Shown here piece after piece: positions 2,264-49,474 of a DNA stretch of 64,000 nucleotides (positions are counted from its first letter, which is position 1; each line of letters begins with the position of its first letter). The position numbers and the translations under genes are program-made. The stretch spans positions 1,736,001 to 1,800,000 of the forward strand of contig NZ_JACBZP010000001.1 in the NCBI RefSeq assembly GCF_013409065.1, read 5' to 3'. The stretch comes from Spelaeicoccus albus (GTDB lineage Bacteria > Actinomycetota > Actinomycetes > Actinomycetales > Brevibacteriaceae). The notes beneath the pieces are model-generated. The model saw only the letters and a program-made list of their open reading frames with translations, was not told the origin of the DNA and made no database searches.

Positions 2264-2995
2264 ATGTCCACCGGATCCGAAGTGACGCCGTCCGCTCATT
2301 CGCCGTATGCCCGCACCTACGAGTCCACGGACGAGGTGATCGAGGTGTTCCGTCCGGTTATGCGCGCCATCGCGGCGGCCGGCGGGCCGTCTTGCGAGGT
2401 CGTGTTGCATGATTTGTCAGGTGCAGATGTCGACCTGGGGCATACGATCATCGCGATCGAGAACGGGCAGGTCACCGGTCGTGACGTGGGCGGGCCCTCC
2501 ACAAACCTCGGCGTAGGAGTACTTCACGATCAATCGGCCGATCACGACGCTTTCGGTTACCGTGGAGTTGCCCGGGACGGGCGGGAGCTGCGCTGTTCGT
2601 CGATCTACTTCCGCAACACGTCGGGCGCCGTCATTGCGGCGCTGTGCATCAATGTCGATCTCAGCCCGATACAACAGGCGAAGGCGCTGCTCGACGGCCT
2701 GGCCCCGTCGGATCCGCCCGGTGCGGGTGACCGGCCGCATGAGTTCATCGAGAGCGATTTGGTATCCGTCATGGACGCCATGATCGCCGAGGCGATCCGT
2801 CTCGTCGGCAAGCCCGTCGAGCAGATGAACCGGGACGACCGCATGAACGTGCTGATGCGACTCGATAAGCAAGGCGCGCTGCAGATGAAGAAATCGGTTG
2901 AGCGCATCGGCGCCCGGCTTGGAATCTCACGCGTTACCGCGTACGCGTACCTCGACGAGGCACGGAATCGAACTAGTGCGGTGTCCGGGGACTGA
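2264..2995 (+). CDS. YheO/DauR-type PAS and helix-turn-helix transcriptional regulator
   Basis: A 243-residue cytosolic regulator. Residues about 20-135 form a YheO-like PAS domain (CEVVLHDLS, a conserved glycine-rich strand, then SSIYFRN and AALCINVDLS). Residues about 175-235 end in the DauR-like HTH (MKKSVERIGARLGISRVTAYAYLDEAR). Relatives include DauR, which represses D-arginine catabolism and transport genes. The start at 2264 is supported by AAAGGAAGG 5-8 bases upstream; an in-frame ATG at 2213 overlaps the palindrome. Divergent organisation with the MHS transporter suggests the regulator controls that transporter and itself. The ligand is unknown. Confidence 0.85.
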   Translation: MSTGSEVTPSAHSPYARTYESTDEVIEVFRPVMRAIAAAGGPSCEVVLHDLSGADVDLGHTIIAIENGQVTGRDVGGPSTNLGVGVLHDQSADHDAFGYRGVARDGRELRCSSIYFRNTSGAVIAALCINVDLSPIQQAKALLDGLAPSDPPGAGDRPHEFIESDLVSVMDAMIAEAIRLVGKPVEQMNRDDRMNVLMRLDKQGALQMKKSVERIGARLGISRVTAYAYLDEARNRTSAVSGD

Positions 2996-24308: not shown

Positions 24309-24401
24309 CGGTGGCTTTCTGCCGGCGACCGCCCGTACGACTATCGTTTGTCTGCCGTGATGTGGTTCACTTGAAGAATCCAATTTCATAGCCGACAAAT
24401 C

Positions 24402-24592
24402 GAAGCGGGAGAGTCCGTGCCAGCCAGGTGACGGACGCCGTAGGAGCAACTCCTCCCCGGGAATCTCTCAGGCACACGTACCGTTTCGACCAGGCAACTC
24501 TGAAGAGCAGCCGGCTTCGCCGGCTCACCGACGGTGCAAGCGCCAGTGCAATATGACGCAAATCTCTCAGGTTCGATACAGAGGGGGGAGGA
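24402..24592 (+). promoter_or_regulatory. Tandem glycine riboswitch upstream of gcvT
   Basis: Two aptamers in series. The first (about 24404-24500) has GCGGGAGAG, CCGTAGGAGCAACTCC and AATCTCTCAGGCA. The second (about 24501-24588) has GAAGAGC, CACCGACGGTGCAAGC and AAATCTCTCAGG, closing with ACAGAGG. These are the conserved blocks of glycine riboswitches, which as tandem pairs usually switch on glycine cleavage genes when glycine is high. The second aptamer ends about 54 bases before the gcvT start. Of the 337-base gap between the DUF202 pair and gcvT, the first 90 bases show no other feature. Confidence 0.95.
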
Positions 24593-30471: not shown

Positions 30472-30598
30472 GCAAATACGTGCTCCGGGGTCGGTGAGAA
30501 TCCGAACCGGCGGTGATAGTCCGCGACCCGCCCCATGGCGGTTGACTCGGTGGAATTCCGGGACCGACGGTAATAGTCCGGATGGGAGGAAGCACGGC
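30472..30598 (+). promoter_or_regulatory. FMN riboswitch (RFN element)
   Basis: All conserved RFN blocks occur in order: GGGGTCGGTGAGAATCC, ACCGGCGGTGATAGTCCGCG, CGGTGGAATTCCGGGACCG and ACGGTAATAGTCCGGATGGG, closed by the CGTGCT/AGCACG stem. FMN binding normally shuts off riboflavin synthesis or uptake genes. There is no terminator after it; instead CCCC at 30646-30649 can pair with GGGG at 30662-30665 of the next gene's ribosome site, so control is probably at translation. A possible ATG inside the aptamer (30582) is not a start. Confidence 0.96.
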
Positions 30599-39063: not shown

Positions 39064-40539
39064 TCAAACGTCATCGACCACCGGTACCTCTTCGCCGTCC
39101 GCATCGATGAGCTTGCCGTCCTTGACGTGGTCGCCGTCGACCAGGTTTGCGACGTCGGCCGGGCAGACTGTGCGTGCGCTTCCGGCCGCCACGAATACCG
39201 ATTGGTCGTCGGTGTTGCCGGCCCTGAGGTGGTTGAACAGCAGATTGAGCACGATTGCCATGATCGCTGCCGAACTGATTCCCGAGTCGAAGATGGTGGC
39301 GAACCAGTCGGGGAACTTGTCGTAGAAATCGGGGTTGGCGATCGGGATCATGCCGAATCCGATCGACGACGCCACGATTATCAAGTTCATGGTGTTGTCG
39401 TACTTCACGGTGCTCAGCGTGCGGATGCCGCTTGCTGCGACGGTACCGAACAACACGAGCCCCGCCCCACCAAGAACCGGCATCGGCACGTCGGCCACCA
39501 CACGCCCGAGAACCGGGAAGAGACCGATGGCGATCATGATGAGGCCGCCGGCCGCTACGACGAAGCGGCTCTTGATCTTGGTGACGGCCACGAGTCCGAC
39601 GTTTTGCGCAAACGCCGTCTGCGTGAACGAGCCGAAGATCGGGGAGATCGTGCTGGAGAGCATATCGGCGCGCAGGCCGTTGGCAATGCGGCGCGAGTCG
39701 ACCTTGGTGCCGACGATCTCGCCGATAGCGAGAAGATCGGCAGTGGTCTCCGTCAGCGTGACGATGACCACTATGACCATGGAGATGATGGCCGAGACGT
39801 GGAATGTCGGCGCCCCGAAGTGGAACGGCGTCGGGAACGCAAAGATCGCGCCTTCCCCGACGTCCGAGAAATCCGTCATCCCGAACGCCACGGCAATGAG
39901 CGTGCCCAGCACCATCGCCAGCAAGATCGACAGGCGCGAGATGGCGGCGCTCTTGACCTTGCTGAGCGCCAACACGATGGCGAGTGTCAGCCCGGCCAAG
40001 CCGATGTTGCCCATGCTGCCGTAACCCGTGGCGTCCGCGTCGCCGCCCATCGCCCAGTTTCCGGCCGTCGGCAGCAGCGACAGTCCGATAGTGGCGATGA
40101 CGCTGCCCGTGACCACGGGAGGGAAGAATCGGACGACCTTGGAAAAGTATGGGGCGATCACGAAGCCGAACGCGGCCGAGACGAGGATGGCGCCGAAGAC
40201 CGACGGCAGGCCGCCGCCCTTCGTCACGATCGCCAGCATCGTCGCCACCGATGCGAACGTGACTCCCTGCACCAGCGGCAGCTTGGCACCGAGGAACGGC
40301 ACGCCCAGCGATTGCAGCAGCGTGGCCAGACCGCACATGAACAGTGCTGCCGCAATCAGAATGCCGGTGTCGGCGCCGCTCAGCCCGGCCGCCTGACCGA
40401 TGATGAGCGGCACCGCAATGATGCCGCCGTACATGGTCAGGACGTGTTGGAAGCCGTAGGCGAAACTCGCGCCGATCCCCAATCGCTCATCCTCGGGGCG
40501 GTGCGGTGGCGGACGGCCGTGTGCATTTGACAGTTTCAT
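39064..40539 (-). CDS. NCS2-family urate/xanthine permease
   Basis: A 491-residue nucleobase:cation symporter-2 protein with about 12-14 membrane segments. SFAYGFQHVLTMYGGIIAVPLIIG at the start, VTLTETTADLLAIGEIVG in the middle, and FAQNVGLVAVTKIKSRFV (the NAT signature region) mark the urate/xanthine branch. It is the last gene of the uraD-uraH-uox operon, so urate is the most likely substrate. The C-terminal 40 residues are polar and cytoplasmic. The start at 40539 fits the family; the ribosome site before it is weak. Confidence 0.9.
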   Translation of the reverse strand: MKLSNAHGRPPPHRPEDERLGIGASFAYGFQHVLTMYGGIIAVPLIIGQAAGLSGADTGILIAAALFMCGLATLLQSLGVPFLGAKLPLVQGVTFASVATMLAIVTKGGGLPSVFGAILVSAAFGFVIAPYFSKVVRFFPPVVTGSVIATIGLSLLPTAGNWAMGGDADATGYGSMGNIGLAGLTLAIVLALSKVKSAAISRLSILLAMVLGTLIAVAFGMTDFSDVGEGAIFAFPTPFHFGAPTFHVSAIISMVIVVIVTLTETTADLLAIGEIVGTKVDSRRIANGLRADMLSSTISPIFGSFTQTAFAQNVGLVAVTKIKSRFVVAAGGLIMIAIGLFPVLGRVVADVPMPVLGGAGLVLFGTVAASGIRTLSTVKYDNTMNLIIVASSIGFGMIPIANPDFYDKFPDWFATIFDSGISSAAIMAIVLNLLFNHLRAGNTDDQSVFVAAGSARTVCPADVANLVDGDHVKDGKLIDADGEEVPVVDDV

Positions 40540-40569: not shown

Positions 40570-41472
40570 TCAGCAGAATCCGGCAATGCCTTCCCAGGCC
40601 TCGGGCTGGGGTGGCATACCTTCGCGTTGCACTGTGCCTTCAATCAGCCCGTAGGGTCGGTCGGCGGCAAAGAACACCTCATTCGGGTTGTCCTGGCCGA
40701 ACGGCGACAGATCCACGAGGAAATGGTGCTTGTTCGGCATCGAGAACTTGATCTCGTCGATCGAATCGTGCGCTTCGAGCACCTTGCTGCCCATTTGATA
40801 CAGGGTGTTCTGCAACGCCGACGAGTAGCCGTCCGAGAAGCCTTCGAGCAAGAGGGCCGTCACGCTGTCGAACGTCTTGTTGAAGTCGACGTCCGCGCCG
40901 GCGTTGCGGTACCGCCATTTTGCTGCCACATCGGTGGCAAGGATCCGGTCCGTCGTTTCCGGAAGCGTCGTGTATTTGTCCTTCGGGTACCCGACGAATC
41001 CGGATTCGGTGGATTTCAGCACCGTGAGACCCTTCACCCCGCCGAGCAGCCAGTCCCTGTCGCCGTCCCGGGTCAGAGTGGCGGTACGCACGCAGCGACC
41101 ATTCCGCACGAACGAGTGGTCGTGCGATGCGCCGTGGGCGTCGATCCGGTCCCAGGCGTACGACTCGGCCGACCAGCGACCGCCGCGTACCCAGTCGAAA
41201 TCTCCGGTGAAGTGATCGGCAAGCCGGCGCAAAAACTCCTCGGGAGAGCCCACGCCGTCGCGTGCAAACGAGTAGATGGTGTTCTTTTGCGTGTCCGTGG
41301 CAATCACGTGGGCGTTGTCGCCGTCCAAATGCGCAGCTTCGAAGTCGCCGCGTAACTCGGAGGTGACGGACAGGTCCTCGATCGTGTGGCGAGCGGTATC
41401 GCGGGTGACTTTGACGAGGCGGACCTCGGCTTTTCCGTACTGGTTCGGGCCCAGAACGATCTTGGAATTCAT
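40570..41472 (-). CDS. uox: Urate oxidase (uricase)
   Basis: A 300-residue cofactor-free oxidase that converts urate and O2 to 5-hydroxyisourate and hydrogen peroxide. IATDTQKNTIYSFARD supplies the catalytic Thr-Lys region, GLTVLKSTESGFVGYPKDKYT is a family signature, and SMPNKHHFLVDLSPFG near the end carries the urate-binding region. GGGAG precedes the ATG by about 10 bases. It lies between the permease and uraH in one operon. The enzyme is cytosolic here, as no signal is present; the hydrogen peroxide produced might be handled by the nearby Bcp peroxiredoxin. Confidence 0.96.
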   Translation of the reverse strand: MNSKIVLGPNQYGKAEVRLVKVTRDTARHTIEDLSVTSELRGDFEAAHLDGDNAHVIATDTQKNTIYSFARDGVGSPEEFLRRLADHFTGDFDWVRGGRWSAESYAWDRIDAHGASHDHSFVRNGRCVRTATLTRDGDRDWLLGGVKGLTVLKSTESGFVGYPKDKYTTLPETTDRILATDVAAKWRYRNAGADVDFNKTFDSVTALLLEGFSDGYSSALQNTLYQMGSKVLEAHDSIDEIKFSMPNKHHFLVDLSPFGQDNPNEVFFAADRPYGLIEGTVQREGMPPQPEAWEGIAGFC

Positions 41473-41478
41473 GGTGAT

Positions 41479-41805
41479 TCAGCTCCCTCGGTAGGTGGAA
41501 TAGGCAAATGGACTCAGCAGCAACGGCACGTGGTAGTGCTGGCTCGAATCCGTGAGCAGGAAATCGATGGTGACGCTGGGAAAGAAGGAATCGACACCGC
41601 ATGCGCGAAAATAGGAGGCGGTGTCGAAGGCGATCCGGTAGGTGCCGGGCGGCACCGCGTCCGGACCGAGATCCGGCACGCGGCCATCGTCGTTCGTGAT
41701 CGCCTCGGCCAGGACCCTGCCGTCCGTCGTCAGCAGCGTGACGGGTACTCCTCGGGCAGGCGTGCCGGACGCCGTGTCGAGCACATGGGTGGTGATCTGA
41801 CTCAT
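41479..41805 (-). CDS. uraH: 5-hydroxyisourate hydrolase (transthyretin-like)
   Basis: A 108-residue transthyretin-related enzyme that hydrolyses 5-hydroxyisourate to OHCU. ITTHVLDTASGTPARGVPV holds the first active-site histidine, SFFPSVTIDFLLTDSSQHYHVPLLLSPF the second His region, and the C-terminal YRGS tetrapeptide is the diagnostic end of true HIU hydrolases as opposed to transthyretins. It starts in the last bases of uraD (ATGA overlap) and ends 6 bases before uox. Confidence 0.96.
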   Translation of the reverse strand: MSQITTHVLDTASGTPARGVPVTLLTTDGRVLAEAITNDDGRVPDLGPDAVPPGTYRIAFDTASYFRACGVDSFFPSVTIDFLLTDSSQHYHVPLLLSPFAYSTYRGS

Positions 41806-42296
41806 TGAAACAGTCCTCCCAGTCGGAGCACGGCGATCTGGCGGAGTTGCTCGGCCATGACCTCGCGCTCGGTTGCCGGATCGTTGGTCATGCGTTCACT
41901 CAGATTGGCGAGAATCTCCGCCCGCGTCCGGCCGGCAGCGCGAATCAAGAACACGTGCCCGAATTTGTCCTCGTAGGCGGCGTTACCCGCGTCGAGTCGG
42001 GCAGCCAGGTCGGCATCGGTATCGCCGAGAGACCCCTGTTCGGCCCGGGAGAGTGCTGCTTCGGCACTGTCGCCGTCGGCGCGCCGTCCGATCGGAGGGT
42101 GGTGGGTGAGCGCCTTGTCGAGTTCGGCGTCGGTCCACGGTTGGGCGGCCGTGCGGCCGGCCCGGGAGACGTCGTCCGGACCGGTATAGGGTCGCCGGTC
42201 GGCGACCTCGGCCGCCCAGCGTTCGATGTCGACGCACGGCAATAAAAGTGAAATCACCTCGCTGCGGGGCATCGCGTTGAACTCGTCGACTTGCAT
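41802..42296 (-). CDS. uraD: OHCU decarboxylase
   Basis: A 164-residue enzyme that decarboxylates OHCU to S-allantoin, preventing racemic product. LTHHPPIGRR contains the catalytic histidine and SLGDTDADLAARLDAGNAAYEDKFGHVFLI is the conserved core. The ATG at 42296 is selected by GGAGG 6 bases upstream; the open frame runs further upstream but that part crosses an intrinsic terminator and lacks similarity. First gene of the uraD-uraH-uox-permease operon; its leader contains a terminator-like hairpin 49 bases before the start. Confidence 0.95.
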   Translation of the reverse strand: MQVDEFNAMPRSEVISLLLPCVDIERWAAEVADRRPYTGPDDVSRAGRTAAQPWTDAELDKALTHHPPIGRRADGDSAEAALSRAEQGSLGDTDADLAARLDAGNAAYEDKFGHVFLIRAAGRTRAEILANLSERMTNDPATEREVMAEQLRQIAVLRLGGLFQ

Positions 42297-42344: not shown

Positions 42345-42384
42345 AAAAAAGAGCCGACATCGGTGTGATGTCAGCTCATTTTTT
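42345..42384 (-). terminator. Intrinsic terminator in the uraD operon leader (probable attenuator)
   Basis: On the minus strand GAGCTGACAT-CACACCG-ATGTCGGCTC is followed by TTTTTTATT, a 10-bp stem with one G-U pair and a perfect U-run. It ends about 49 bases before the uraD start with only the ribosome site between, leaving no room for a downstream promoter. The loop ATCACAC could pair with GTGTGAT further upstream (42430-42436 region) as an anti-terminator. On the plus strand the same hairpin is followed by ATTTTTTCC, so it could also work in the other direction. Confidence 0.75.
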
Positions 42385-42496
42385 CCCTGCCCGCTGCTCC
42401 CAGGGTCGCGGCGAACCGCGAACGTGGTGATCACACTAGCCCACATTTCTCCGTGGCGCACGTCACATTGCAAAAAATTTTTCCGTCGACCGGTGG
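42385..42496. other. uraD leader and divergent promoter region
   Basis: Part of the 307-base gap between uraD (minus) and the small gene at 42604. It would be the transcribed leader of the uraD operon if the promoter lies near the operator-like site at 42549. Apart from GTGTGAT complementary to the terminator loop no known riboswitch is recognised. Confidence 0.4.
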
Positions 42497-42603: not shown

Positions 42604-42771
42604 ATGACGGTAACCGGTTGCAACGAAGACTCGCCGGAGCTGGAGGAATCCGAAATCTTTGTCTCCGAGATTTATGGCTCGGTCAATGCCGATCCGGATT
42701 TAAGTGTGCCGGTTCGAGAAGAGTCGCGAACCTGGCGACGCGTCCTGCGGGCTTTCACCTCGCCCCGATGA
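42604..42771 (+). CDS. Small 55-residue protein, unknown, inside the purine island
   Basis: A 55-codon frame beginning MTVTGCNEDSPELEESEIFV and ending in RTWRRVLRAFTSPR. It has a textbook AAGGAGGT 5 bases before the ATG and a good promoter 80-110 bases upstream, stronger signals than most genes here. The first half is acidic (E/D-rich), the last 15 residues basic, with no membrane segment; I recognise no family. It diverges from uraD and shares the predicted IclR site, so a regulatory or partner role in purine use is conceivable. Being below usual size cut-offs it would be missed by many annotations. Confidence 0.6.
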   Translation: MTVTGCNEDSPELEESEIFVSEIYGSVNADPDLSVPVREESRTWRRVLRAFTSPR

Positions 42772-45434: not shown

Positions 45435-46790
45435 TTACCGGCGGAGCAGGGTGCCGGACGGCGTCCGGAAATCCACTTCCCGTCCCCGCACGAACGTGCG
45501 TTGCACAACGCCGCTGAGTTCGAGCCCGTCGTACGGTGTCACGGCGTTCTTGTGCAGAAGGGCCTCCGCATCGACTGTCAGGGTGTGGTCGTCGGCGAAC
45601 ACCGAGAAGTCGGCGTCGTAACCGACGGCGAGACGTCCCTTGCCCCGGACGCCCGCCACTCCCGCCGGGCCGCTGCCCATCCAGCCGGCCACCCGGGCCA
45701 AATCGAAGCCGCGACGCCTGGCCTCGGACCAGATCAGCGGCAAGCCCAGCTGTAGCGAGGACACCCCGCCCCAGGCAGTGCCGAAATCGCCGTCCGGGGG
45801 ATTCTTCAGTTCAACGGTGCTGGGCGAGTGGTCGGAGACTATCGAGTCGATCACGCCGTCGCCGAGTGCCTGCCACAGCGCCTCCCGGTTCGCCTGACCG
45901 CGGATCGGCGGACAGCATTTGTAGGCCGTCGCGCCGTCCGGGACCCGCTCGGCGTCCAGCGTCAAATAGTGCGGGCACGTCTCGACGGTGAGCTGCACGC
46001 CGTCCCGCTTGGCTCGAGCGATCTCGGGCAGCGCATCGGACGACGACAAGTGCAGAATGTGCGCGCGAGCACCGGTACGGCGGGCCGTCTCGATGACAGT
46101 GGCAATGGCACTGTCCTCGGCCTCGTGCGGGCGCGAGCCCAGGAACGACGCGTACTTGCGGCCGGACGGCGGCGGCGAACTTGCAATGACGCGGGCGTTC
46201 TCGGCGTGCACGATCACCATCGAGCCGATGCGAGCGATCTCGGCCATATCGCGTTCCAGCTCAGTGTCGCCGATCGGCGGGAATTCCGGAACTCCGGAAT
46301 CGATGAGGAAGCATTTGAAGCCGAACACGCCGGCGTCGTCGAGTTCGGCGAGACGCCGGGTATTTCCCGGAACCGCCCCGCCCCAGAACCCGACGTCGAC
46401 GAATACCTGATCGCGGGCGACGGCGCGCTTGGCGGCCAGCGCCGGCACGTCGACGGTTGGCGGGATCGAGTTGAGCGGCATGTCCACTATCGTCGTCACG
46501 CCGCCGGCCGCGGCCGCACGGGTCGCCGACGCGAAACCCTCCCACTCGGTGCGGCCCGGCTCGTTGACGTGCACGTGCGCATCGACAAGGCCCGGCATCA
46601 GGACGGCGTCGGCGCCGACCTCGACCGCGCGCCGGCCGGCCAGGCCCGCGCCGGCCGGCGCTATTACAGTGATCACCCCGTCATCGACCCCGACCTCGAG
46701 GGGCCGGACGCCGTCCGGACCGAGCACGCGCGGCCCGCGTGCCACGAGATCGTGGACGGCTCCGGATTCTTCGGGGGAGTCGCTTTGCAT
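45435..46790 (-). CDS. allB: Allantoinase
   Basis: A 451-residue cyclic amidohydrolase opening allantoin to allantoate. Metal ligands are visible: His72 and His74 (DAHVHVNEPG), carboxylated Lys159 (VFGFKCFLIDSG), the HAEN histidine, HILHLSS histidine and the aspartate of VSDHSPS. AAGGAG lies 6 bases before the ATG at 46790, which lies 14 bases after the gcl stop; a longer open frame continues upstream over gcl but has no family similarity. It is the last gene of the hyi-glxR-gcl-allB operon, joining ureide opening with glyoxylate use. Confidence 0.95.
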   Translation of the reverse strand: MQSDSPEESGAVHDLVARGPRVLGPDGVRPLEVGVDDGVITVIAPAGAGLAGRRAVEVGADAVLMPGLVDAHVHVNEPGRTEWEGFASATRAAAAGGVTTIVDMPLNSIPPTVDVPALAAKRAVARDQVFVDVGFWGGAVPGNTRRLAELDDAGVFGFKCFLIDSGVPEFPPIGDTELERDMAEIARIGSMVIVHAENARVIASSPPPSGRKYASFLGSRPHEAEDSAIATVIETARRTGARAHILHLSSSDALPEIARAKRDGVQLTVETCPHYLTLDAERVPDGATAYKCCPPIRGQANREALWQALGDGVIDSIVSDHSPSTVELKNPPDGDFGTAWGGVSSLQLGLPLIWSEARRRGFDLARVAGWMGSGPAGVAGVRGKGRLAVGYDADFSVFADDHTLTVDAEALLHKNAVTPYDGLELSGVVQRTFVRGREVDFRTPSGTLLRR

Positions 46791-46804
46791 GATCACTCCT
46801 TGCG

Positions 46805-48571
46805 CTACACGGTCAGCGGCGTCAGCGCCGTCGGCGCGTCGGCAGCCGTGCCGGCGAGTTCTTCGATCTCGTTGACGTTGTCCAGCTCGGTTCCCATCGA
46901 GATGTTCGTGATGCGTTCCAAGATGACCTCGACGATAACCGGCACCTCGAACTCGTGCGCCAGCGCGGTCGCTTTTTCCAGTGCCGCGGCCAGATCGGTG
47001 GGGTCCTTCACGCGCACGGCCTTGCAGCCGAGCCCCTCGGCAACCTTCACATGGTCGACACCGTAGCCGTCCACGTCCGGAGAGTTCACGTTCTCGAACG
47101 CGAGGGACACCTGATAATCCATGTCGAACGCGCGTTGCGACTGACGGATCAGCCCCAAATACGAGTTGTTCACGACCACGTGCACGTAGGGAAGCCGGAA
47201 CTGCGCGCCGACGGCCAGTTCCTCGATCATGAACTGGAAATCGTAATCGCCCGACAGTGCCACGACAGTTTCTTTCGGCTTGGCCCGGACGACGCCGAGA
47301 GCTGCCGGCACCGTCCAGCCGAGCGGCCCGGCCTGGCCGGCATTGATCCACTTGCGCGGGCCGAACACGTGCAGCATTTGCGCGCCGGCGATTTGCGACA
47401 AGCCGATGGTGGACACATAGGTCGTGTCCGGGCCGAATGCTCGATTCATTTCTTCGTACACGCGTTGCGGTTTGATCGGAACGGTGTCGAAATGTGTCTT
47501 CCGCTGCAGGGTGCCCTTGCGAGCAGCGCAGTCGCCGGCCCAGCCGGAATAGTCCGGCAGAGTCCGCTTGCGCGCAGCCGCGATGAGTTCGTCAAGTGCG
47601 GCGCCGGCGTCCGACGTAATGCCGAAGTCCGGTGCGAACACGCGGCCGATCTGCGTCGGCTCGATATCAATGTGCACAAAGGTGCGCCCGGCCCGGTACG
47701 TGTCGAGTCCGCCGGTGTGGCGATTGGCCCACCGGTTGCCGATGCCCAGAACGAAGTCCGAAGCCAGCATCGATTCGTTGCCGTACCGGTGTGCCGTTTG
47801 AATTCCCACCATTCCGGCATTGAGCGGATGATCATCGGCCAGCGCACCCCACCCCATCAGGGTCGGCACGACGGGCACGCCAAGCAGTTCGGCAAACTGG
47901 ACGAGCTTGTCGGAGGCGTCCGAATTGACGACGCCGCCGCCGGCCACGATGAGCGGTCGCTCGGCTGCCAGCAGCATGTCGAGCGTCTTCTCGGCCTGGG
48001 CGCGGGTTGCCCGCGGTTTCGCCGGCGTCAGCGGCGCATAGGCGTCGGGATCGAAGTCGATTTCGGCCATTTGGACGTCGAGCGGCAGATCGATCAGCAC
48101 GGGCCCGGGGCGGCCCGATCGCATCAGACCGAACGCCTTTTGCAGGGCGCCGGGCACCTGGGCCGGCTCCAGCACAGTCATCGCCATCTTCGTCACGGGG
48201 GTGGCGATGGACTGGATGTCGACGGCTTGGAAATCCTCTTTGTGCAGTTTGGCCACCGGGGCTTGGCCGGTGATGGCGAGGATCGGGATCGAATCTGCCC
48301 ATGCGGCGTACAAACCGGTGATCATATCGGTGCCCGCCGGCCCGGACGTTCCCAGGCACACCCCGATGTTGCCGGGGCCGCTGCGACTGTAGCCGTCGGC
48401 CATGTGCGCGGCGCCTTCAACGTGCCGGGCGAGCGTGTGCCGGAGGCCGCCGTGGGCCTTCATCGCTGCGTACAGGGGATTGATGGCGGCGCCGGGTAAG
48501 CCGAAAGTTTCGGTGGCACCTTCTTTTTCGAGGATCAGGACGGCAGCGTCAACGGTGCGCATCTTTGTCAT
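46805..48571 (-). CDS. gcl: Glyoxylate carboligase
   Basis: A 588-residue thiamine diphosphate enzyme joining two glyoxylates to tartronate semialdehyde with CO2 release. The diagnostic point is Val51 in [15 protein letters not shown], where nearly all ThDP enzymes have a catalytic glutamate; this Val is the mark of glyoxylate carboligase. The [16 protein letters not shown] and [12 protein letters not shown] blocks form the ThDP-binding region. AGGAG lies 6 bases before the ATG. Within the operon it stands after glxR, whose enzyme reduces its product. Confidence 0.96.
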
Positions 48572-48595
48572 TGTCTTCTCCTATGCGTGAATGGA

Positions 48596-49474
48596 TTATT
48601 GGCGCCCGGACGTGCGTGCGACCTCGGTCAAGAGACCCGAGTGGTCGAGCCCGCCGTCTCCTTGAGCGACGATGTTGCCGACCAGCCCGGCGACCGTCGA
48701 TCCGAGAGGGATGGCGACGCCCGCCTCGCGGGCGGCGGCGTTGACGATACCGAGATCCTTGTGATGCAACTGCAAGCGGAAGCCCGGCTTGAAGTCGCGG
48801 TCAAGCATTTTTTGTCCCTTTTGGTCAAGCACTTTGGAGCCGGCCAGTCCTCCGCCGAGCACCTTCAGCCCGGCTTCGGTGTCGACGCCGTACGCCTCCA
48901 GGAACACGACCGCCTCGGCAAGTGCCTCGATATTGGCCGCAACGATCAGCTGGTTAGCCGCTTTCACCGTTTGGCCCGAGCCGGAGGGGCCGACGTGCAC
49001 GATTGTGGTGCCGACCGCGTCGAAGACCTCGCCGGCAGCGTCGAAGTCTTCCGGGGCGCCGCCGACCATCACCGACAGGGCGCCGTCGATGGCTCCGGCT
49101 TCGCCGCCCGATACCGGCGCGTCCAGTGGGCGAACGCCGGCGTCCCTGGCCCGTGCGGCGAGGTTCGTTGCCACATCGGGCCGGATGGTGGAGAAATCGA
49201 TCCACAATGCGCCGGCCCCGGCATGGGCTAAGGCGCCGTCGTCGCCCGTGACGACCGCCTCGACGTCGGGGGAGTCGGGCACCATCGTGACAATGACGTC
49301 GGCGCCGTCCACCGTTTCGGCGATGCTGCGGGCAGCCTTGCCGCCGGCAGCCTTGAACTTCTCGGTCTTTTCCGGCGAGCGGTTGTAGCCGGTCACGTCG
49401 TGCCCGGCGTTGGCGAGGTTGGTGGCCATCGGCAGGCCCATAATGCCCAGACCGATGAACGCGATGGATGTCAT
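48596..49474 (-). CDS. glxR: Tartronate semialdehyde reductase (2-hydroxy-3-oxopropionate reductase)
   Basis: A 292-residue beta-hydroxyacid dehydrogenase that reduces tartronate semialdehyde to D-glycerate with NAD(P)H. GLGIMGLPMATNLANAGHDV (residues 7-26) is the nucleotide loop, DAPVSGGEAGA the substrate loop and GQTVKAANQLIVAAN the helix with the catalytic lysine. Located between hyi and gcl in one operon, it takes the carboligase product to glycerate, which the glycerate kinase at the window end would phosphorylate. Confidence 0.95.
   Translation of the reverse strand: MTSIAFIGLGIMGLPMATNLANAGHDVTGYNRSPEKTEKFKAAGGKAARSIAETVDGADVIVTMVPDSPDVEAVVTGDDGALAHAGAGALWIDFSTIRPDVATNLAARARDAGVRPLDAPVSGGEAGAIDGALSVMVGGAPEDFDAAGEVFDAVGTTIVHVGPSGSGQTVKAANQLIVAANIEALAEAVVFLEAYGVDTEAGLKVLGGGLAGSKVLDQKGQKMLDRDFKPGFRLQLHHKDLGIVNAAAREAGVAIPLGSTVAGLVGNIVAQGDGGLDHSGLLTEVARTSGRQ

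Follow-up and report, generated by a model that had tools for sequence, protein, structure and literature searches.

The uraD operon and its leader terminator

The window (the whole stretch of 64,000 nucleotides that was analyzed) carries on its minus strand a purine-catabolic operon comprising uraD (OHCU decarboxylase, 41802..42296; PF09349, TIGR03180), uraH (hydroxyisourate hydrolase, 41479..41805; PF00576, TIGR02962), uox (urate oxidase, 40570..41472; PF01014, TIGR03383) and a xanthine permease gene of the pbuX family (39064..40539; PF00860, TIGR03173); the Pfam and NCBIfam matches bear out the gene identities given in the original prediction. Divergent from uraD lies a 55-codon open reading frame (42604-42771, plus strand) with a good ribosome-binding site and no match in Pfam. 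A minus-strand open reading frame at 45435-49474 has Pfam amidohydrolase domains and is allantoinase-like, and the frames beside it appear by eye to be like glyoxylate carboligase and tartronate semialdehyde reductase; these genes are probably the remainder of the purine pathway.

Between uraD and its promoter region an intrinsic terminator occupies 42345..42377 on the minus strand, as identified by a terminator scan, by folding of the leader and by compensatory changes among the members of the family described below. The hairpin (42377-42351) reads GAGCTGACATC-ACACC-GATGTCGGCTC and forms 11 pairs, one of them U-G; TTTTTT follows directly on its 3' side (42350-42345), giving the G+C-rich hairpin with an immediate U run that characterizes Rho-independent terminators, and the uraD ATG (42296) comes 48 bases after the U run. 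The terminator originally described, with a stem of ten pairs, six U residues and a distance of 49 bases, is therefore real, with one more pair and one base less. In a scan of 8 kb it has the longest terminator-like stem and is the strongest site, the number of such sites alone (10, versus a shuffled mean of 6.3) being unremarkable, and the 90-nt leader folds with a z of -4.4, which none of 200 shuffles equaled. The same stem also makes a weaker terminator on the plus strand by way of the A run on its other side, as had been noted from the T-run there.

Upstream of the terminator, a -10-like box TAGTGT (42433..42438, minus strand) implies a transcription start at about 42426. Upstream of this promoter is an imperfect dyad, TGTGACGTGCGCCACG (42452..42467, minus strand), which is identical in G003, a genome of another genus in the same family, and which we take to resemble a CRP-type site.

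Distribution of the leader and its association with purine genes

A match to uraD was found in 58 of 99 related genomes, and of 29 non-self uraD loci only that of G003 has the same leader; there CCTGGGAGCAGCRGGCAGGGAAAAAATGAGCTGACATC is identical but for one base, while the upstream hairpin (P1) and the terminator loop differ. The conserved core is absent from all 28 other uraD loci (L004-L031), many of which show an operator-like palindrome instead. Such palindromes (TTCCAC-type) occur near the start of uraD or uox in L038 (7300-7400, minus strand), in uraD and uox leaders and in many of the core-less uraD loci, and they likely represent a second layer of control. In G003 a strong promoter-like pair, TTGTCG-17-TATAGT, lies between the terminator and uraD; its copy of the leader thus need not be the sole route to the operon. 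A scan of genome contigs for uraD yielded four distant loci, which were left out of further comparisons.

Searches that located the element by sequence or model, and not by gene, extended this distribution well beyond uraD. A DNA search found further copies before uricase in two genomes of another family, as well as a second copy in G003, where the gene that follows encodes 2Fe-2S domains and is like the small subunit of xanthine dehydrogenase. A covariance model built from five copies (R1) had matches at E <=1e-3 in 52 of the 245 genomes of this other family, with 36 places at E <1e-10; 20 secondary or weaker places were fetched and eight of them dropped as generic terminators. Nine weak R1 and R2 matches (L111, L114, L115, L116, L121, L123, L124, L125 and L132) were recognized as generic terminators when their sequences were read; they were dropped before any counts were made, and the place counts below refer to fetched loci. 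A further model (R2) had matches in 18 of the 396 genomes searched in the order, five of them through type B cores only (see below) and one (G418/L132) falsely, as judged on reading; at the level of the class it matched 5 of 394 genomes, all within that same order. In the uricase family a variable-gap pattern of the core was found in 36 of 168 genomes, and across the phylum in 2 of 296, as compared with 1/168 and 0/296 for the reversed pattern; the 36 genomes comprise 18 with both types, 3 with type A only, 14 with type B only and 1 false match. The type B pattern occurred in 2/120 and 5/24 genomes of two further families (reversed-pattern controls 0/120 and 0/24). In viral contigs a 21-base core pattern had no exact match, and in plasmids the 85-base leader of L077 had none, a protein search of plasmids for 8-oxoguanine deaminase returning 147 records.

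The fetched loci contain 75 distinct places that fit the core pattern, of which one (L170) lacks any of the genes listed below, was counted as unclassified and was treated as false. The remaining 74, from four bacterial families of one order as reached by these sequence-based searches, all lie on the sense strand just upstream of a gene. They fall into two types, assigned from sequence alone, with the downstream genes identified by blastx. The 39 places with the type A core, GGGAGCAGC, precede uricase (25), xanthine permease (pbuX; 5), a small open reading frame (sORF87; 5), uraD (2) and xanthine dehydrogenase (xdhA; 2), and all 35 places with the type B core, GGAUCAGC, precede 8-oxoguanine deaminase. 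The type B form, CCUGGAUCAGC-AGA-CAGG-nnnnn-ACUGAGCUGG, was seen before an amidohydrolase gene; in G003, where a type B core lies upstream, the homologue is an 8-oxoguanine deaminase (NF006055, 687.8 bits against a cut-off of 532). Relatedness makes these gene-context counts non-independent, but the division between A and B nonetheless holds within single genomes.

The small open reading frame behind the type A core, of about 87 residues, unknown function and no match in Pfam, was observed at L073 (2055-2318, minus strand) and in L112, L118, L119 and L144; the strong downstream hairpin is absent in three of its five cases. In L074 CTGACGAARYAAYGCCCGGGCCAACCCCGGAA is tandemly duplicated in the leader of a xanthine dehydrogenase gene (approximately 2560-2632, plus strand).

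Architecture of the leader RNA

The leader RNA consists of the P1 hairpin, the P2 stem-loop CCUG-GGAGCAGCRGG-CAGG, a linker of 7 nt and the strand UGAGCUGRC, whose bases are also the 5' arm of the terminator, which forms the 3' end of the leader RNA. P1 in the window is UCGCGG-UUCG-CCGCGA (42406..42421, minus strand); hairpins of other sequence stand at the same place in G003 (UGUGAC-GGAC-GUCACG), in L074 and in most members, and this sequence-variable hairpin is clear in type A, with a mean z of -1.5 (n=35), and less so in type B, with a mean of -0.8 (n=35). Most type A places (37 of 39, against 3 of 39 for a control interval) have a TANNNT motif 25-46 bases ahead of the core, and so do 16 of 34 type B places (control 1/34), a spacing which indicates that transcripts probably start just before P1. 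The dyad motif GTGN6GNCAC occurs no more than 95 bases ahead of the core in 26/39 type A and 0/35 type B places, a tally that includes dyads inside P1.

The core itself, CCUGGGAGCAGCGGGCAGGGAAAAAAUGAGCUGA in the window (type A, 42371..42404, minus strand), is conserved across members and runs on into the 5' arm of the terminator, and it is retained also where no terminator lies downstream. Within it P2 (42386..42404, minus strand) is formed by CCUG (42404-42401) and CAGG (42389-42386) around its loop, unchanged in all 28 aligned type A rows. The linker measures 7 nt in 38/39 type A and 27/35 type B places. In two members of type B it carries self-folding insertions, of 20 and 53 nt, that leave neither half of the core disrupted, which fits a loop in RNA and not a DNA operator.

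For the terminator, covariation is clear: across 28 type A rows 308 of 308 cells are paired (100%), 14 of them altered on both sides, a result that none of 500 shuffles matched and that a separate run with 32 rows reproduced in similar form. The pairing of the terminator is thus preserved through compensatory changes across members. Where a U-tract is present, a downstream complement to the 3' strand of the core that is better than 95% of shuffles was found in all 34 type A places and in 3 of 4 type B places; of the type B places that have no U-tract only 11 of 31 possess one, and of the sORF87 places only 2 of 5.

The strand GCUG (42372..42375, minus strand) is common to the core and the terminator, and the CAGC of the P2 loop (42393..42396, minus strand) is able to pair with it in 28/28 type A rows, in two of them by way of U-G. 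CAGC and GCUG may therefore be the 5' and 3' strands of a pseudoknot. The joint covariation score of P1, P2 and the pseudoknot in these 28 rows shows no excess over shuffles (86/500 as high), P2 and the pseudoknot being invariant apart from the one pseudoknot pair with a U-G variant, so that covariation cannot test them. Because the pairs of the pseudoknot show no covariation, mutual exclusion of the core and the expression platform is a proposal that we infer from the shared strand.

A candidate purine riboswitch

Regulated read-through is supported by the fact that the leader is conserved in its entirety, 5' arm of the terminator included, before purine-catabolism genes of related function in several genera, and that part of the attenuation originally suggested for this operon stands. 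We estimate the probability at roughly 60% that a conserved cis-acting leader RNA attenuates transcription of the uraD-uraH-uox-permease operon and is most likely a purine riboswitch not described before; its occurrence before other purine-breakdown genes in relatives points to a purine such as uric acid as the probable ligand. Transcription would start just upstream of P1. With no ligand, UGAGCUGACAUC would pair with GAUGUCGGCUC, and the terminator would halt RNA polymerase; with a purine bound (uric acid or xanthine in type A), an H-type pseudoknot would tie GCUG to the CAGC of the P2 loop, the terminator would be blocked and the operon read. The pairing potential of CAGC and GCUG suggests such an ON switch, which would suit a catabolic operon. 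Type B would act in the same way on 8-oxoguanine deaminase; some genomes would use a terminator for this, others possibly a different hairpin downstream. The fuller proposal, to be taken as tentative, is an undescribed class of small pseudoknot purine riboswitches in which the 3' strand of the pseudoknot is the 5' arm of the terminator, with two ligand-specific subtypes that can stand side by side in a genome, A for uric acid (or xanthine) before urate genes and B for 8-oxoguanine before its deaminase.

It is unlikely, though worth serious consideration, that the core RNA is recognized by a purine-responsive protein instead of a metabolite, the protein then preventing or promoting termination. 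The conservation and gene association would fit this equally well, and a short core (~34 nt) with hardly any variation is what leaders bound by proteins can show; however, an unsystematic look turned up no candidate RNA-binding protein beside the genes, and the two gene-sorted subtypes in the same genomes (18/36 carry both) would require two specificities. The inverted repeat CCTG-N-CAGG could also be taken for a DNA operator at which a repressor acts as a roadblock, the terminator being a plain one, and operator-like palindromes do lie nearby in several uraD and uox leaders; this is very improbable given the single orientation of the element (74/74), half-sites conserved despite the 20- and 53-nt linker insertions, and a core that lies downstream of the -10 box at a near-fixed distance and continues into the covarying arm of the terminator. 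A separate small RNA gene that has a promoter and terminator of its own and stands before purine genes by chance was at first favored on the strength of the promoter-like pair behind the G003 terminator, and the start and end of the transcript do appear well defined; it was dropped once copies emerged before the uricase, xanthine dehydrogenase, permease and 8-oxoguanine deaminase genes, and is now very improbable, as the element is associated with the gene immediately downstream, switches subtype with that gene (35/35 for type B) and in many type B copies has no terminator.

As to how read-through might be controlled, the original prediction was that an upstream GTGTGAT could pair with ATCACAC of the terminator to form an antiterminator. 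The seven bases exist (GTGTGAT at 42436-42430, minus strand, matching ATCACAC in the stem and loop), but they overlap the probable -10 box TAGTGT (42438-42433) and precede the implied start, and the bases of the stem-loop differ among the other members, so that the match is not conserved and this mechanism, unlike read-through control as such, is scarcely credible. Attenuation by a leader peptide or minimal open reading frame, AUG AGC UGA, is extremely improbable as well: AUGAGCUGA is present in the window and in G003 with AGGG upstream of it, but the AUG is a CUG in type B and the frame of many type A members reads AUG AGC UGG, with no stop, and the frame was rejected as not conserved in type B.

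The riboswitch reading can be set against known families. Rfam 15, which includes the NMT1 model, has no family that matches the element (window leader, L077 and L137), and no purine-riboswitch family matches at E up to 10; the statement in the original prediction that no known riboswitch is recognizable thus holds for Rfam 15, although the leader does resemble an undescribed one. At E up to 10 the only match to the window leader is the Threonine operon leader (RF00506, 27.6 bits versus a gathering score of 55 bits), a weak match that apparently comes from the shape of A-run, terminator and U-run, in an operon with no threonine genes. As riboswitches in general do, the element presents a conserved structured RNA in the 5' leaders of related genes across genera, and searches of open-licence PMC papers brought up no recognized description of it. 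The NMT1 motif, or xanthine riboswitch, is associated with purine oxidation and is described as sensing xanthine and uric acid by a two-stem junction, with 649 representatives in Proteobacteria, almost no terminators and OFF control (PMC7373994). The element shares the association with purine genes but has no NMT1 match, ends in a terminator in the window copy and is proposed to be an ON switch. Guanine-I riboswitch variants sense xanthine and 8-oxoguanine through a three-stem junction with a kissing loop (PMC9295807, PMC11625349); small sequence changes there shift specificity among purine ligands, and types A and B may behave likewise, whereas the element has neither the three-stem junction nor an Rfam match. 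The preQ1 class I riboswitch is described as a small H-type pseudoknot with pairing of a loop to a 3' strand and with terminator or ribosome-binding-site platforms, preQ1 promoting termination in B. subtilis (PMC11625349). The likeness would lie in the possible H-type pseudoknot (28/28 rows, with no covariation) and the A-rich linker of the window copy; consensus, gene context and proposed logic differ, and the element does not match the preQ1-I model of Rfam.

The riboswitch hypothesis can be tested directly with an RNA of ~85 nt. If it is true, actinobacteria-like genomes would have a riboswitch that responds to uric acid, xanthine or 8-oxoguanine and acts through a terminator, types A and B would offer a natural pair of related aptamers in which to study the change of purine specificity in RNA, and the element could serve to control bacterial uricases and urate sensors. 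Elsewhere in the window, on the plus strand, Rfam models identify tandem glycine riboswitch aptamers at 24396-24591 (63.2 and 40.7 bits) and an FMN riboswitch at 30477-30598 (93.1 bits).
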